This document shows, one piece after another, positions 7,653 through 13,167 of a stretch of 44,604 bases of DNA. The first letter of the stretch is position 1, and each line of letters begins with the position of its first letter. Both the position numbers and the translations under genes were made by a program. The stretch lies in IMG/VR virus record IMGVR_UViG_3300033149_004711, positions 1 to 44,604 of that record. One strand, given 5' to 3'. The notes beneath the pieces were generated by a model. It ran no database searches. It saw only the letters and a list, made by a program, of their open reading frames with translations, and had not been told where the DNA came from. The DNA is from a virus.

Positions 7653-8014
7653 CGCCAGAGGAGCACGAGGAGGCCGCACAGATCGAACCGCTGCCACCAG
7701 ACACCTACGATGTGGAGTTGGAGTCGGTGGAGACGCACACCAGCCAGAAGGGCAACCTTGTGTTCGACTTGCGGTGGAGGGTGATTAACCACCCCGATTA
7801 CAACAACAGAGTGCTGTTCGACCACCCGATGTGGGGTGGGCGGCAGATGCAGGCAATGATTGACGCGACGGGGTTTAGTTGGAGTGGGACGACTGTCAAC
7901 ACCGAAGATATGGTTGGGTTGTCTTGCCAAGCGGTGGTTGATGTTGAGGAGTACACACCAGAGGGTGGGAGACCGCGCAAGACGAACCGGATCGTGGATT
8001 ATGTCGCAATGTGA
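7628..8014 (+). CDS. DUF669-like protein, probable single-strand DNA-binding partner
   Basis: Encodes 128 residues; GAAGGAGGTG precedes ATG 7628. The pattern PPDTYDVELESVE, then GNLVFDLRWRV, and a C-terminal strand pair matches DUF669 proteins, which follow AAA_24 ATPases in many phages and behave like single-strand DNA-binding proteins. Expected to act with the ATPase at 6514. Confidence 0.8.
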   Translation: MPEIDVGMTPEEHEEAAQIEPLPPDTYDVELESVETHTSQKGNLVFDLRWRVINHPDYNNRVLFDHPMWGGRQMQAMIDATGFSWSGTTVNTEDMVGLSCQAVVDVEEYTPEGGRPRKTNRIVDYVAM

Positions 8015-8021
8015 GGAGTGA

Positions 8022-8152
8022 GGCCAGAGTGGCGGAATTGGTAGACGCTTGTCTCAAGGCAGATACTCACGGGCGGAGGGTCTGCAATCACAGAAGCAAT
8101 GCCCTGTCGGAGTTGTAAAGCTGCTGTGCGGGTTCGAGTCCCGCCTCTGGCC
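8022..8152 (+). tRNA. Abnormal Leu-type tRNA-like gene, 131 nt
   Basis: Acceptor GGCCAGAG (8022-8029) pairs perfectly with CTCTGGCC (8145-8152): 8 bp, one more than normal. Next come TG, a D arm GCG-GAATTGGTAGA-CGC (8032-8048) typical of tRNA-Leu, and a T arm GCGGG-TTCGAGT-CCCGC (8128-8144). The anticodon arm is odd: TGTCT/AGATA closes a six-base loop CAAGGC, so CAA (8055-8057, Leu) after T8054 is only a candidate. The variable region (8066-8127) is 62 nt, with an inner TCTG/CAGA hairpin. No CCA is encoded. It may be a degenerate tRNA, an intron-bearing tRNA or a tRNA mimic. Confidence 0.65.
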
Positions 8153-8155
8153 TTT

Positions 8156-8191
8156 GGAGGTAACAAAATGAAAGCCCTCCTCGGGGGGTAG
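8156..8191 (+). promoter_or_regulatory. Leader minigene (7 codons) with self-pairing ribosome binding site
   Basis: GGAGG (8156-8160) is followed by ATG 8168 and seven codons, MKALLGG, ending at TAG 8189-8191, five bases before the next gene. CCTCC inside the minigene (8176-8180) can pair with the GGAGG. Translation of the minigene could control re-initiation at ATG 8196. Confidence 0.5.
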
Positions 8192-8195
8192 AGTA

Positions 8196-8585
8196 ATGAG
8201 TTGGAATCCCGAAAAAGAAGTTCCAAGTTTGGAACTGTGTAAGAAGTTAAGAGAGCTTGGTTATCCTCAAGATGGAGGTGGTCTGTATTGGAATACGAGA
8301 GAAGGCAGAATAGCTATCATAAGACCGTGGAAAAGCTTTAAAGCTCCAAAGCACTTTGTTAAAGCTCCCACTTGCCGAGAGTTGGGGGAGTGTTTGCCTT
8401 CGTTTGTGCACGAGGCGAAGGACGAAAAACAAAAATATCGTATCGGGAATGCAAACTTGGTGGATGATCCGTGGTTTGAGTCTGACACTGAACCCAATGT
8501 TCGTGCTGAAATGCTGATTTGGTTAGTGGAGAATGGATGTGTCAAGTTTTTTGTGCTAAGGCGTGATAAGGATGATGACAGCTAA
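8196..8585 (+). CDS. Phage hypothetical protein between two tRNA-like genes
   Basis: Encodes 129 residues. ATG 8196 follows GGGGGG and the leader minigene. The start, EVPSLELCKKLRELGYPQ, and the tryptophan- and tyrosine-containing beta region after it are of a type I associate with widespread small phage proteins of unknown function. Base composition differs from its neighbours: the strong G+T bias of the coding strand is absent and the gene is richer in A. With a tRNA-like gene on each side it looks like a recently acquired cassette. Confidence 0.85.
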   Translation: MSWNPEKEVPSLELCKKLRELGYPQDGGGLYWNTREGRIAIIRPWKSFKAPKHFVKAPTCRELGECLPSFVHEAKDEKQKYRIGNANLVDDPWFESDTEPNVRAEMLIWLVENGCVKFFVLRRDKDDDS

Positions 8586-8636
8586 GGGAGCACCCCACCA
8601 CCACAACCCGATGGAGGTGAGGGGGTGGGAGTGGAA

Positions 8637-8782
8637 GGACGGAGTGGCGGAAAAAGCGGCCACAGGCCGCGGTAGACGCTGCGAACACGAGTCGGGGAGC
8701 CACACCTCGTTAGGTCAGGAGCGTAGGGGACTGCTACTCGTGGCTGAAGGTCCCCGTGGGGGTTCGAATCCCCCCTCCGTCC
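8637..8782 (+). tRNA. Abnormal tRNA-like gene with a hairpin inserted in the D loop, 146 nt
   Basis: Acceptor GGACGGAG (8637-8644) pairs perfectly with CTCCGTCC (8775-8782), again 8 bp. The T arm is GGGGG-TTCGAAT-CCCCC (8758-8774). The D arm has the same GCG...GGTAGA-CGC frame as the first tRNA-like gene, but the loop carries a perfect hairpin GCGGCC-ACA-GGCCGC (8656-8670). A variable-arm stem GGGGAC/GTCCCC spans 8726-8755. Between them, TGCG/CGTA (8680-8683/8722-8725) encloses an ACGAG/CTCGT hairpin, so the anticodon cannot be read with confidence. No CCA is encoded. Unlikely to be an ordinary decoding tRNA. Confidence 0.6.
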
Positions 8783-8845: not shown

Positions 8846-9100
8846 GTGAGAGAAGTTGAGGTTAAGAGTAAGGGAACGGTTGTTGGGGTGGTGGATGTGC
8901 CCGAAACCATGGATGAAGTGATGGAGTTGGATGCGGAGAAGGTCGTGCGGTGGGTTGCAAGGGGGATTGTTGAGGATGCACGAAGAGCGGCGTCTCGACC
9001 ACGCCCACTGAGCGAGGATGCGAAGGCGTTGGCGAAAAGGTTCGACAGCTTGTCGCCGGAACAGCGTGAGCAGATCGCTCAGATTTTGGGTGCTATGTAA
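8846..9100 (+). CDS. Hypothetical phage protein with shared C-terminal helical motif
   Basis: Encodes 84 residues from GTG 8846 after AAAGGAGGTGAAAAA (8831-8845); the ATG at 8828 lies upstream of the ribosome binding site and is rejected. The N-terminus is a beta pair (VEVKSKGTVVGVVDVPETMD); the C-terminus, LAKRFDSLSPEQREQIAQIL, resembles those of genes 3112 and 42699. Followed directly by a strong terminator, so it ends a transcription unit. Confidence 0.82.
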   Translation: MREVEVKSKGTVVGVVDVPETMDEVMELDAEKVVRWVARGIVEDARRAASRPRPLSEDAKALAKRFDSLSPEQREQIAQILGAM

Positions 9101-9169: not shown

Positions 9170-9205
9170 TCGGCAAGCATGCCGTTTCGCTAAAAGAGGA
9201 TGTGT

Positions 9206-9493
9206 ATGAGACTAATCCCGTTGCAAGATAGGGTGATTATACGAGAAGTTGAGGGTAAGAACCGCACGAAGGGCGGCATTTGGTTGCCCGACACCGCTGT
9301 GGATAGGCCGGAGGTTGGGGTTGTGCAGGCTGTCGGACCGGCTGTGCGGGAGGGGTTGATTGAAGCTGGAGCGAGGGTTGTGTTTGGGAAGTATGCGGGG
9401 GCTGACATTGAAGTTGGAGGAGTGAGGTTGTTGATTGTGAGGGAGGATGATGTTCTTGCATACATCGAGGAAGGAGAGTGTGATGAGGATTGA
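9206..9493 (+). CDS. groES: GroES-like co-chaperonin
   Basis: Encodes 95 residues, the normal GroES length. ATG 9206 gives MRLIPLQDRVIIREVE, the classical N-terminal strand. The mobile loop KNRTKGGIWLPDTA and the following VGVVQAVGP strand are typical; the C-terminal DDVLAYIE matches the family end. It would cap a GroEL ring, presumably the host's since no GroEL is encoded, as T4 gp31 does for capsid folding. Unlike those cases it sits in the replication operon rather than the head module. Overlaps the next gene by 11 bases. Confidence 0.95.
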   Translation: MRLIPLQDRVIIREVEGKNRTKGGIWLPDTAVDRPEVGVVQAVGPAVREGLIEAGARVVFGKYAGADIEVGGVRLLIVREDDVLAYIEEGECDED

Positions 9494-10715
9494 ACGTGTT
9501 TCGCTTGAGAGTGTTAGGGTTGGCGAGAGAGTGAGGGAGGATGTTGGGGATCTCAACGCGCTTGCGATGTCGATAAAGCGGTATGGGTTGGTGCATCCGA
9601 TTGTTGTTGATGGTGAGGGCAACCTCGTTGCGGGGTTTAGGCGTTTGCGTGCGTGTGAGATGTTGGGGTGGGAGCAGATTGATGCACATGTTCTTGACGA
9701 TGTGGATGAGCTTGGGTTGCGTGAGATAGAGCTTGTCGAGAATATCCAACGAAAGGACTTGGAGTGGCCGGAAAAGGTGAAGAGTGTGCGGGAGTTGTAT
9801 AGGTTGATGCAAGAGAAGCATGGGACGAGTGGGAGGGGGTATGTTGGAGGGTTTGGTGTGCAGGAGCTCGCAGCACTGCTTGGGGTGAGTGTTGGCACAG
9901 TCAGCCAAGACCTACAGCTTGCAGCATTGATTGAAAAAGTTCCGGAGCTGGCGAGTGTAGAGAAGAAGACGACTGCGCTTCGCAAAGTGAAGAAGATGAT
10001 GGATGTTGCGTTGAGGGAGAAACGTGTGGCAGAGCGCTCGGAGATGCCGGAAGGGGTTGTGTTTGTGAACGAGGATTGCAGGGCGTTTATGCGGAGGTGT
10101 GTTGATGAGGGTAAGAAGTTCCATTGTTGCGTGACAGACCCACCTTGGGGGGTTGACCTCGGCGACCTGCGCTTTCAAGAAGCCAACACGGAGTGGGACG
10201 AACAGCAACACGCCCTTGAGTTGATGGAGGAGGCGTTTGGACTGCTTGATCAGGTGTTGGTTGAGGATGCGCATGTTTATGTCTTCTTCGCGATGCGGAA
10301 TTATGATCGGGTACACCGCATGTTGGCGAAGCGGTGGGATGTTGACTGGCTACCCCTAATTTGGAATAAGAGGGTTGGGTCATCCACGATGGTTGTCGAC
10401 CAGAAGTATGTTTCGGCTTATGAGACGATCTTCTTTTGCAAGAAGGGTACGGGTCGCAAGCTCGCCCAACGCACGTCGAACGTCTTCACCTACGACCGCG
10501 TCAGCAAACCCATCCACCCCACACAAAAACCCGTCCAACTGCTTATGCAGTTCATTGAGAACAGCACCGTGCGCGGCGAGAGCGTGTTTGACCCCTTCGC
10601 GGGGAGTGGGAGCACGCTTCGTGCAGCACGGAAGCTCGACCGCGTTGCGGTTGGGTGTGAGAGTGATGAGGTGATGTATGCAAAGGCGTTGGAGATTGTG
10701 GAGGGGGGTGAGTGA
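9483..10715 (+). CDS. ParB/HTH domain fused to a DNA (N4 or N6) methyltransferase
   Basis: Encodes 410 residues from ATG 9483 (GAAGGAGAG upstream). Residues 1-100 are a ParB/Srx-like domain with VVDGEGNLVAGFRRLRA and ENIQRKDL. Residues 125-145, VQELAALLGVSVGTVSQDLQ, are a KorB/ParB-type helix-turn-helix. Residues 195-405 are an amino-methyltransferase with the catalytic DPPW at 219-222 ahead of the AdoMet motif VFDPFAGSGSTL, so beta-class order. It probably methylates adenine or cytosine in phage DNA, protecting it from restriction or marking it. Having both ParB boxes and an HTH suggests targeting to specific sites. Confidence 0.92.
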   Translation: MRIERVSLESVRVGERVREDVGDLNALAMSIKRYGLVHPIVVDGEGNLVAGFRRLRACEMLGWEQIDAHVLDDVDELGLREIELVENIQRKDLEWPEKVKSVRELYRLMQEKHGTSGRGYVGGFGVQELAALLGVSVGTVSQDLQLAALIEKVPELASVEKKTTALRKVKKMMDVALREKRVAERSEMPEGVVFVNEDCRAFMRRCVDEGKKFHCCVTDPPWGVDLGDLRFQEANTEWDEQQHALELMEEAFGLLDQVLVEDAHVYVFFAMRNYDRVHRMLAKRWDVDWLPLIWNKRVGSSTMVVDQKYVSAYETIFFCKKGTGRKLAQRTSNVFTYDRVSKPIHPTQKPVQLLMQFIENSTVRGESVFDPFAGSGSTLRAARKLDRVAVGCESDEVMYAKALEIVEGGE

Positions 10716-10810
10716 TGGACGCGATCGTTATGTTGATAGGAGTGGTGGCGTGGGCGGCGTTGCTTTGCTACATCTGCGACTACATCATCTCGCGTTGGGG
10801 AGGTGAGTGA
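10715..10810 (+). CDS. 31-residue membrane micro-protein
   Basis: ATG 10715 overlaps the methyltransferase stop and follows GGGGGGTGAG. The product, MDAIVMLIGVVAWAALLCYI plus CDYIISRWGGE, is one hydrophobic helix with a short polar tail. Its stop overlaps the polymerase ATG, so it is coupled to both neighbours. It may anchor something at the membrane, or the short frame may only serve translational coupling. Confidence 0.65.
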   Translation: MDAIVMLIGVVAWAALLCYICDYIISRWGGE

Positions 10811-13167
10811 TGGTGAAGTTGAGGAGAGTGCCAGCCGAAGGTCCGAAGGATGCGAAGATTGCGATTGTGGGGTTGGGCCCCGGAGCGACAGAGGAACGGG
10901 AGGGTAGGCCGTTCGTCGGCGCTGCGGGGAGGTTGCTCGACGGTGCGTTGAACCACGCTGGGTTGCTTCGCTCGCAGTGTTATGTCACAAACATCTCCGA
11001 ATACCGCCCGCCTGCAAACAACCTCAACCGCCTCCATGAGGTGGGGATTGACCTTGGGGAGCAGAAGCAACGGCTATACGCCGAGTTGCAGACAGTAAAG
11101 CCGAATGTGATAATAGCGTTGGGGAATGATGTGCTTCGCACCCTCACACAAAAGGATGGGGTGATGGCGTGGAGGGGGAGTGTGTTGGAGTCACCATACG
11201 GGAAGGTCATCCCAACCTTCCACCCCGCCGCGATTGTGCGCGCGTCCCACATGAAGCACCCGTATGAGAAACGGAAAATCCCACTCTACCCCCTCCTCCT
11301 CTTCGACCTACGTAAAGCTGTCCGCGAAGCAGCGTTTCCGGAAGTACGACGCAAGATGCGGAGATTGGTTACAGCACCGAAGTTTGAGCAGGCGGAGGAT
11401 TTTCTGGGGATGTGTATGCGGGCAGAGAAGGTTGCAGTAGACATCGAAACCCTACGGGGTGAGGTTGCGTGTGTGGGGTTTGCGGTGAATGAGGGATATG
11501 CGATGTGCGTCCCGTTTGATACGGGAGTGGGGAGTTATTGGGCGAGCGCGAGGCAGGAAGCGGAGGTGTGGAAAATGGTGATGGAGGTGTTGGCGAATGG
11601 GAAGGTGAAGAAGATTATCCAGAATGCGTTGTTCGAACTGAAGTTCTTGGGAGGACACGATCGCTTACGCGGTGTGTGGTGGGACACAATGCTTGCATCA
11701 CACACCATCTACCCAGAACTACCGCGCGGGCTTGACTTCCTCACCTCAATCTACACCGACATCCCTTACTACAAGCACGAGGGTCGGTATTGGCAACCTG
11801 GGGATGATCCGCATTCGTGGTGGCGCTACAACTGTCTTGATTGCGTAGTGCCATACGAGGTGCAGGAGAAGCAGTGGTGTGAGTTGGAGGAAGCTGGGTT
11901 GTTGGAGCTTTTTCTTGGTGGGGTGATGCCGCAGTTGGGTCCCGCGTGTGAGATGGAGAGCCGTGGGGTGAGGGTTGATTTTGCGCGAGTGGAGCATCAC
12001 AAGAGGGTGCAGGAAGAGAGGGTGAGAGGTGCGCAGGAGCGCTTGGATGCGAAGGCTGGGTGGGAGGTTAACGTCTACTCCACCAAGCAGGTGCAGAAGT
12101 TGCTGTATGATGAGTTGCGGTTGCCAAAGCAACGAAAGGGGCGTGAGAGGAAGGTGACGGCGGACGAAGCCGCGCTTGATAAGTTAGCGCTCAAGTTTCC
12201 TCAGTTGGAGGAACTCCAACTGATCAAACAGATTCGTGCAGCACGCAAACTTATCTCCTCTTACCTACACGATGGAGTGTTCGACGGTGACAGGGTGAGG
12301 TTTGGTGTGTCGGTGGGAGGGACGGAAACTGGGAGGTGGTCAACGGGAAAGACGATTTGGGGAAAGGGGTTGAATATTCAAACAATCCCGCACACACTGC
12401 GTGACATTTTCGTTGCGGATGAGGGGATGGTGTTGATGTACCCCGATGGGAGTCAGGCTGAAGCGAGGGTGGTGGCGTGGCTTGCAGAAGAGGAGAGGTT
12501 GATTGAGGTGTTTGAAAGCGGAAAGAAGGTGCATCGTGTCGTTGCAGCAATGATTTATGGTAAGAGTGAGGATGAGGTGAGTGAGCGTGAGTATGATTTG
12601 GGCAAACGTGCAGTGCATGGCGGGAACTACGGTCTTGGTCCAGAACGCTTTGTGGAGGTTGCGAAGAAGTATGGTGGGATTGATGTTAGCGTAGCTGAAG
12701 CGAGGGAGTTGATTGAACGCTACCACGCCCTTTTCCCCAACATCCGCAATCACTACCAACGCTCAATCCGCGAGCAGCTTCAACGTAACAGGACGCTCGT
12801 GACACCGCTTGGTCGGAAGAGGGTTTTCACCGGAGCGATGGGTGAGGATTTGTTCAAAGAGGGGTATGCGCACGTCGCACAAAGCACGATTGCGGATTGG
12901 CTGAACCGATCGATGGTGAGGGCGTGGTGGAAGGCGCGAGCTGAAGGGGTGGAGGTTGAGTGGTTGGTGCAGATTCACGATGGGGTGTTGCTGCAAGCAG
13001 TGGATGATGCGGAGGTTGTGAGGAGAGTTGCGGAGATTGTGAAGTGGGCGTTTGAATGGGAGTTTCGGTGTGGGAGTAGGATGCTGTGCATCCCGACCGA
13101 CATCAAAGTTGGTAAGGATTGGTTGGAGATGGAGGATGTGAGGAAGGTGTACGGAGGCTGTGGATGA
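10810..13167 (+). CDS. polA: Family A DNA polymerase with N-terminal uracil-DNA-glycosylase-like domain
   Basis: Encodes 785 residues. Residues 1-170 resemble a family 4 uracil-DNA glycosylase (GLGPGATEE, GRPFVGAAGRLL, FHPAA at 137-141) but lack the iron-sulfur cysteines. Residues 200-350 are a 3'-5' exonuclease (DIE at 211-213, NALFELKFL, YNCLDCV). Polymerase motifs: TGRWST at 507, motif A DGSQAEAR at 546-553, motif B GKRAVHGGNYG at 598-608, motif C QIHDG at 721-725. The motif B lysine of Pol I is His603 here. A glycosylase-like domain on a phage Pol A is known from SPO1-type phages. Replicative polymerase of the phage; no 5'-3' nuclease domain. Confidence 0.95.
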   Translation: MVKLRRVPAEGPKDAKIAIVGLGPGATEEREGRPFVGAAGRLLDGALNHAGLLRSQCYVTNISEYRPPANNLNRLHEVGIDLGEQKQRLYAELQTVKPNVIIALGNDVLRTLTQKDGVMAWRGSVLESPYGKVIPTFHPAAIVRASHMKHPYEKRKIPLYPLLLFDLRKAVREAAFPEVRRKMRRLVTAPKFEQAEDFLGMCMRAEKVAVDIETLRGEVACVGFAVNEGYAMCVPFDTGVGSYWASARQEAEVWKMVMEVLANGKVKKIIQNALFELKFLGGHDRLRGVWWDTMLASHTIYPELPRGLDFLTSIYTDIPYYKHEGRYWQPGDDPHSWWRYNCLDCVVPYEVQEKQWCELEEAGLLELFLGGVMPQLGPACEMESRGVRVDFARVEHHKRVQEERVRGAQERLDAKAGWEVNVYSTKQVQKLLYDELRLPKQRKGRERKVTADEAALDKLALKFPQLEELQLIKQIRAARKLISSYLHDGVFDGDRVRFGVSVGGTETGRWSTGKTIWGKGLNIQTIPHTLRDIFVADEGMVLMYPDGSQAEARVVAWLAEEERLIEVFESGKKVHRVVAAMIYGKSEDEVSEREYDLGKRAVHGGNYGLGPERFVEVAKKYGGIDVSVAEARELIERYHALFPNIRNHYQRSIREQLQRNRTLVTPLGRKRVFTGAMGEDLFKEGYAHVAQSTIADWLNRSMVRAWWKARAEGVEVEWLVQIHDGVLLQAVDDAEVVRRVAEIVKWAFEWEFRCGSRMLCIPTDIKVGKDWLEMEDVRKVYGGCG

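Follow-up and report, generated by a model that had tools for sequence, protein, structure and literature searches.

Two tRNA-framed elements of a virus and an apparently widespread phage family of tRNA mimics with exchangeable inserts

The window analysed here, the whole 44.6-kb virus record (44,604 nt) with its early region of Sak4/SSB/ParB-methylase/UDG-PolA/primase genes, raises the question of what two tRNA-like elements that flank a single gene might be. A sequence-only reading had described them as deformed tRNA-like genes around a foreign-looking gene, and had offered tRNA mimics, tRNA genes with small introns or the ends of a mobile cassette as possible identities. The two elements, W1 (8022-8152) and W2 (8637-8782), both lie on the plus strand and have the lengths of 131 and 146 nt that were first reported for them. 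W1 is located between an SSB-like gene that ends at 8014 and a gene that starts at 8196, and W2 between 8585, where the latter gene ends, and the start that follows near 8847. The gene between the elements (8196-8585, plus strand, 129 aa) is AT-richer than the window (44% GC against 55%); it matches the uncharacterised phage family phrog_31971 and is not clearly foreign. Elsewhere in the window, we observed a phage-encoded GroES-like (Cpn10) gene (9200-9493), a DNA methyltransferase with a fused ParB-like domain (9447-10715) and a single open reading frame (10807-13167) in which a uracil-DNA-glycosylase domain is fused to a 3'-5' exonuclease and a family A DNA polymerase.

Anatomy of the two elements

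Each element is closed by a perfect acceptor stem of 8 bp (8/8 pairs in both), formed by GGCCAGAG (8022-8029) and CTCTGGCC (8145-8152) in W1 and by GGACGGAG (8637-8644) and CTCCGTCC (8775-8782) in W2, with no encoded CCA after either 3' strand. The Leu-type D arm reads TGGCGGAATTGGTAGACGC in W1 (8030-8048) and TGGCGGAAAA-AGCGGCCACAGGCCGC-GGTAGACGC in W2, and the D loop of W2 holds the hairpin GCGGCC-ACA-GGCCGC (8656-8670) directly before G18-G19. The T arms, GCGGG-TTCGAGT-CCCGC in W1 (8128-8144, stem 8128-8132/8140-8144) and GGGGG-TTCGAAT-CCCCC in W2 (8758-8774, stem 8758-8762/8770-8774), have 5/5 stem pairs and standard loops. Neither element has a 7-nt anticodon loop, and the initial description of the locus proved accurate. 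Compensatory pairs distinguish W1 from W2 in the acceptor and T stems. The D-arm pattern has 2 matches in the window where 0.01 are expected by chance, and a scan of the window with the full scaffold returned exactly W1 and W2, with 0 matches in 20 randomised windows. No sigma-70 promoter was seen in the window. On the minus strand, the W2 D-loop hairpin (8656-8670) and its A-run read as an intrinsic terminator, probably by chance.

The place usually taken by the anticodon arm and variable region, ~32 nt in all, is occupied by an insert of 79 nt in W1 (8049-8127) and of 78 nt in W2 (8680-8757). The insert of W1 contains a candidate helix (8090-8097/8120-8127) and a candidate loop-loop pairing (8071-8074/8101-8104). 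The insert of W2 is predicted to form an H-type pseudoknot, in which stem 1 would pair CACGAGT (8686-8692) with ACTCGTG (8736-8742) and stem 2 GGGGAC (8726-8731) with GTCCCC (8750-8755), CGGGGA at 8693-8698 being an alternative 5' strand for stem 2.

Programs that recognise tRNAs largely pass over the two elements. ARAGORN run by default on the window gave no match to W1 or W2, and with introns allowed it gave only nonsense intron models for them. Against the Rfam tRNA model W1 reaches 33.5 bits (cut-off 29), in the sensitive scan only; W2 fails the tRNA cut-off and scores 19.8 bits against tRNA-Sec, below the cut-off of 47. The elbow signatures of a tRNA and its acceptor, D and T arms are all present in W1 and W2, and a 5-bp anticodon stem with a 7-nt loop carrying U33 and a purine at position 37 is absent from both. 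Having no anticodon arm, W1, W2 and their kin therefore cannot act as ordinary tRNAs and probably serve some other purpose in infection.

The tRNA frame in other phages

Searches for close relatives of this phage, by protein and by DNA, returned only distant polymerase and terminase relatives, and a partly syntenic Desulfofustis phage stretch that was scanned contained no such element, so that the assignment of W1 and W2 rests on family resemblance: on the frame, the missing anticodon arm and the site of the D-loop hairpin. The earlier suggestion of tRNA mimics is supported, and it proves to apply to a large phage family. With a pattern of Leu-type D arm, spacer and T arm, we found inserts of 60-90 nt within this frame in at least 120 IMG/VR contigs, and in nearly all of the IMG/VR matches listed the acceptor strands are complementary and the anticodon arm is absent. 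The family counts are lower bounds and not a census, and the pattern itself imposed the Leu-type D arm; class-I frames carry inserts too, and a control with a Ser-type scaffold gave 0 matches with a strict pattern. Run on 84,980 genomes, the same pattern retrieved 104 stretches. Some of these are duplicated pieces of tRNA and others are true members of the family, most of which come from Bacteroidota and some from other groups. An isolated phage, Bacteroides phage BS-TP2, carries an unannotated element between its DUF2303 and NinG genes, at ~19,550 in PQ571275.

An unbiased scan for the acceptor TAGTCAGG, without length or T-arm limits, returned at least 102 complete elements. In the 102 TAGTCAGG-type elements among the matches listed, the inserts range from 23 to ~122 nt with a median of ~62, two longer values being discounted as coming from adjacent elements. 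D-loop hairpins of 21-28 nt are present in 9/102 of these elements, again among the matches listed; they always stand before GG18-19, the site of the W2 hairpin, and show compensatory changes. The W1 acceptor occurs elsewhere only in L086, among the matches listed. Across 89 distinct frames, 85-100% of the acceptor and T-stem pairs are formed, and both stems covary, most positions using 3-4 types of Watson-Crick pair. At the outermost acceptor position (-1:73), pairing is seen in 72% of cases against 54-63% expected, an enrichment so mild that an acceptor of 8 bp does not define the family. CCA is not encoded in the family. Comparison of these sequences shows that selection maintains a Leu-type tRNA frame, made up of the acceptor stem, a D arm with GG18-19 and a T arm with TTCRANT. 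This phage RNA family is widespread and apparently undescribed: we found no description of it in Rfam or in the literature searched, a body that leaves most subscription papers, including the main ones on Y RNAs, outside.

This conservation bears on the reading of the elements as decaying pseudo-tRNA genes or as remnants of integration sites. Partial tRNA copies are common in prokaryotic genomes, and several of our matches among genome contigs are tandem or truncated tRNA pieces, as that reading would have it; against it, the acceptor and T stems of the family are intact and show compensatory changes, the D-loop hairpins covary, and the elements lie mid-genome, with 1-4 copies per record that differ within a phage, so that we consider decay very unlikely. 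The idea that the elements mark the ends of a mobile cassette found no support either: W1 and W2 differ in acceptor and insert, and elsewhere single elements are found beside unrelated genes.

Among known tRNAs, a close likeness in the D arm (TGGCGGAA(T)TGGTAGACGC), T arm and acceptor stem is to the class II tRNA-Leu, from which the phage elements differ in having no anticodon arm, in the frequent pairing of position 73 with -1, in the extended insert and, in some, in the D-loop hairpin. Kinship with tRNA-Sec, also raised by the sequence-only reading, stands as far as the count of 8+5 bp goes, and this long stack of acceptor and T stem is shared with allo-tRNAs as well; it does not extend to the D arm, which is Leu-type with a 3-bp stem, to the anticodon, which is missing, to the Rfam tRNA-Sec score of W2, which is far below cut-off, or to the eighth acceptor pair, which is weakly conserved and not general in the family.

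If the elements were tRNA genes with small introns, splicing would return ordinary tRNAs, and two observations are compatible with this: the insert lies close to the usual intron site, and intron-like inserts do occur in class-I phage tRNA genes. Yet neither W1 nor W2 gains a proper anticodon arm by any single excision, the best one restoring 4 pairs in W1 (2 of them Watson-Crick) and 3 in W2. In the Leu-scaffold set, an excision that restores a perfect Watson-Crick anticodon stem with U33 and R37 exists in 5% of cases against 1% of shuffles, at scattered positions, and a split-stem test gave 0-1%, the level of the shuffles; the arm is thus restored about as rarely as in shuffled sequence. The same excision test on the class-I control set gave 35% against 1% in shuffles, with sensible anticodons, and the test therefore has power. 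We regard introns as the least likely of the explanations considered here, close to negligible for these elements.

The class-I frames from IMG/VR hold features of their own. In one set of class-I tRNA genes of phages (L356, L358, L359, L309, L331, L395 and others), an insert of 22-52 nt usually lies between anticodon-stem positions 28/29 or 29/30; once it is taken out, a perfect anticodon arm (Lys, Asn, Arg, Ile, Gly, Thr) results in 23/66 cases against 1% of shuffles, and many of these inserts share a hairpin followed by ACAGCAA. They are possibly a new small tRNA intron or a bulged domain. A second class-I group (L318, L330, L344, L353, L361, L364, L369) has a conserved insert of the form stem - TCATGGTGAAGGACCAAAT - stem, whose stems covary (CCTCC/GGAGG, CCGG/CCGG, CCGC/GCGG). 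In L360, L363, L406 and L418, a class-I tRNA gene with the anticodon loop CTGTGGC has an insert that holds a second T-arm-like sequence.

Structure and exchange of the inserts

The inserts of the family are predicted to favour H-type pseudoknots. With stem 2 allowed to end at most 4 bases from the T stem, and with dinucleotide shuffles as control, the predicted pseudoknot was better than the shuffle mean in 110/133 non-redundant inserts (negative z; Wilcoxon p 7e-13), and about a quarter of the 133 fell in the best 5% of shuffles, ~5 times the expected number. This excess is greater than that of the nested topology of a normal tRNA, and a conserved nested anticodon-like arm, considered as a candidate, was rejected as weaker than the pseudoknot. 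The z-score is -2.7 for W2 and -0.4 for W1, whose insert is no better than shuffled sequence in this respect. The shortest inserts (L264, L270, L296) are nearly pure pseudoknots, and stem 2 shows compensatory changes in four groups of relatives (L030/L120, L093/L254, L161/L179, L092/L126). Alignments of larger, looser groups of inserts gave no consensus helix. A search for known RNA families inside the inserts found none, its only matches being to tRNA and falling on the frame. For the inserts of W1 and W2 we found no significant sequence relatives; a 20-nt likeness between W2 and L078, situated at the same place in both predicted pseudoknots and not significant by sequence alone (P 0.28), may serve as only a lead.

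Three Leu-type elements (L042, L182, L221) were observed to share the arrangement hairpin - TGGCA - stem - GAGAGTCCGGATGCTAAA - stem - GTAAGTCC, and the palindrome TCCGGA of this group, which becomes TCGCGA in L182, could mean dimer contacts. A Pistol ribozyme was observed in L215 (2569-2630), ~2 kb from a member element and in a stretch that also holds a tRNA gene.

The loci L027 and L040 are 93% identical over the 150 nt upstream, 99% downstream and 100% in both the 5' and the 3' frame, and their inserts, of 73 and 60 nt, are unrelated (gapped alignments of unrelated sequence give ~0.65-0.75, and values in that range were read as no relation). The pair L068/L263 likewise combines homologous flanks with unrelated inserts. 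At the same time, inserts that are 100% identical are found in L025/L093, L266/L306 and L302/L254; the flanks of L025 and L093 are unrelated, and L302 and L254 differ downstream and in the D-loop hairpin, which L302 has and L254 lacks. Identical or near-identical inserts recur in unrelated contexts in L025/L093, L026/L083 and L087/L040, and L085 and L040 share such an insert under different acceptors. These comparisons, made at the level of sequence, show the insert to be a module that is exchanged between near-identical phages and recurs in unrelated ones.

Possible roles of the elements

The elements are intergenic, with the exception of one that lies inside a large ORF. Of the 66 others flanked on each side by a large ORF, as predicted by a simple ORF caller, 53 run in the direction of both neighbours and 1 runs against both. 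W1 itself occupies the gap between two co-directional genes. The genes beside the elements vary in function, from terminase and thymidylate synthase to anti-repressor, integrase and exonuclease, and no conserved neighbour gene or protein partner was found beside the elements. Such an arrangement, together with neighbours of any function and a conservation limited to the parts seen by RNase P, is compatible with tRNA punctuation, in which the elements would act in cis as signals for the cleavage and stability of polycistronic messages of the phage: RNase P, along with 3' nucleases, would cut at the frame and separate the neighbouring genes, and the insert would just fold on itself and drift. 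Drift agrees poorly with the compensatory stems kept in the inserts and with inserts that are common, intact, to unrelated contexts. Moreover, 13/66 elements do not share the direction of both neighbours, and in some elements the position of a promoter box would let transcription start at the 5' end of the RNA itself: TAnnTTTG, the -7 box of Bacteroidota, begins 10-13 nt upstream of 11/144 elements against ~0.5 expected from background, several of these 11 loci being related to each other. Punctuation thus appears to us an unlikely explanation, though the least unlikely of the alternatives. A match of the elements in antisense to the phage's own DNA was in no excess over chance, the test for relatives covering the stretches retrieved.

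The elements also invite comparison with the bacterial Y RNAs (YrlA/YrlB, RF02553), non-coding RNAs whose D, T and acceptor helices resemble those of a tRNA and which hold a separate module for protein binding at the place of the anticodon arm. A function as a tether, in which the insert binds the ring protein Ro60/Rsr and the tRNA-like part binds, for example, PNPase, would draw on the tRNA-like domain of bacterial Y RNAs, which carries tRNA modifications (PMC8394870), on elements with the same frame that adjoin Ro60 genes in four cyanobacteria, and on one element of a Rhodobacteraceae contig that has a weak relative of Ro60 nearby. We think it improbable for the phage family, more so than punctuation, given that TROVE/Ro60 genes are present in 2/49 family records, far from the element, and absent from the window's record; that W1 scores 16.5 bits against Rfam YrlA, whose cut-off is 69; and that the basal stem of YrlA joins the two ends of the RNA, whereas RNAs of the W1/W2 type end in the acceptor stem and have a hypervariable, exchanged insert. 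The cyanobacterial tRNA-framed elements themselves (L138, L158, L169 and L214, with three in L158) are probably Y RNAs, in ordinary tRNA orientation and with a nested conserved module, the identity of the Ro60-like genes having been read from the sequence and from shared descent across the four genomes.

With tmRNA, the elements have in common a tRNA-like domain joined to pseudoknots and the absence of an anticodon, and they differ from it in their full D stem, far shorter length and lack of a tag reading frame; the tmRNA model and ARAGORN gave no match to W1 or W2, the permissive mode yielding only overlapping models with no recognised tag. The RNAs of type III toxin-antitoxin systems, which are pseudoknot antitoxins, are small, variable, pseudoknotted modules like the phage inserts; the phage elements differ in having a tRNA frame, no tandem repeats and no recognised toxin gene nearby.

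On balance, we find it somewhat more likely than not that W1 and W2 belong to a widespread family of phage RNAs that mimic tRNA, stand alone and carry exchangeable effector modules. The parts of this reading differ in strength. From the sequence comparisons, we are confident of the element anatomy, the family and the module swapping taken jointly; a decoy or effector role of the RNA we propose only tentatively. In such a mimic, a structured insert takes the place of the anticodon and variable domain and is often predicted to form an H-type pseudoknot, with stem 2 abutting the T arm. The RNA would be transcribed along with the flanking operon or else, as in some phages, from a dedicated promoter, and, from what is known of tRNA processing, host RNase P and 3' processing would mature it. 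Enzymes that modify tRNAs or read their elbow would accept the frame as a tRNA and, if RNase P and the elbow-reading enzymes do so, the frame would therefore be a stable carrier. Least certain is the part of the exposed insert, which, as the effector, would act on a host factor in trans and would most likely decoy or inhibit it.

Conflict with host functions would explain the diversity and exchange of the inserts, which by analogy resemble those of conflict genes. With similar caution, we hypothesise that phages may use the tRNA chassis as a universal carrier on which RNA effectors can be interchanged. These small structured RNAs would form a type-switching arsenal, swapped by recombination in the constant arms and aimed at variable functions of the host or of rivals. 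Mimicry of tRNA by non-coding RNA is already known from tmRNA and Y RNAs; in Rfam and in the papers searched, we met no phage family with a constant tRNA frame whose functional part is hypervariable and exchanged between genomes. Standard annotation misses this family, as ARAGORN does by default, and Rfam recovers it in part only, labelled as tRNA. Being found in an isolated phage too, the family may offer a direct handle on the part played by phage RNA, and not protein, in conflict with the host.
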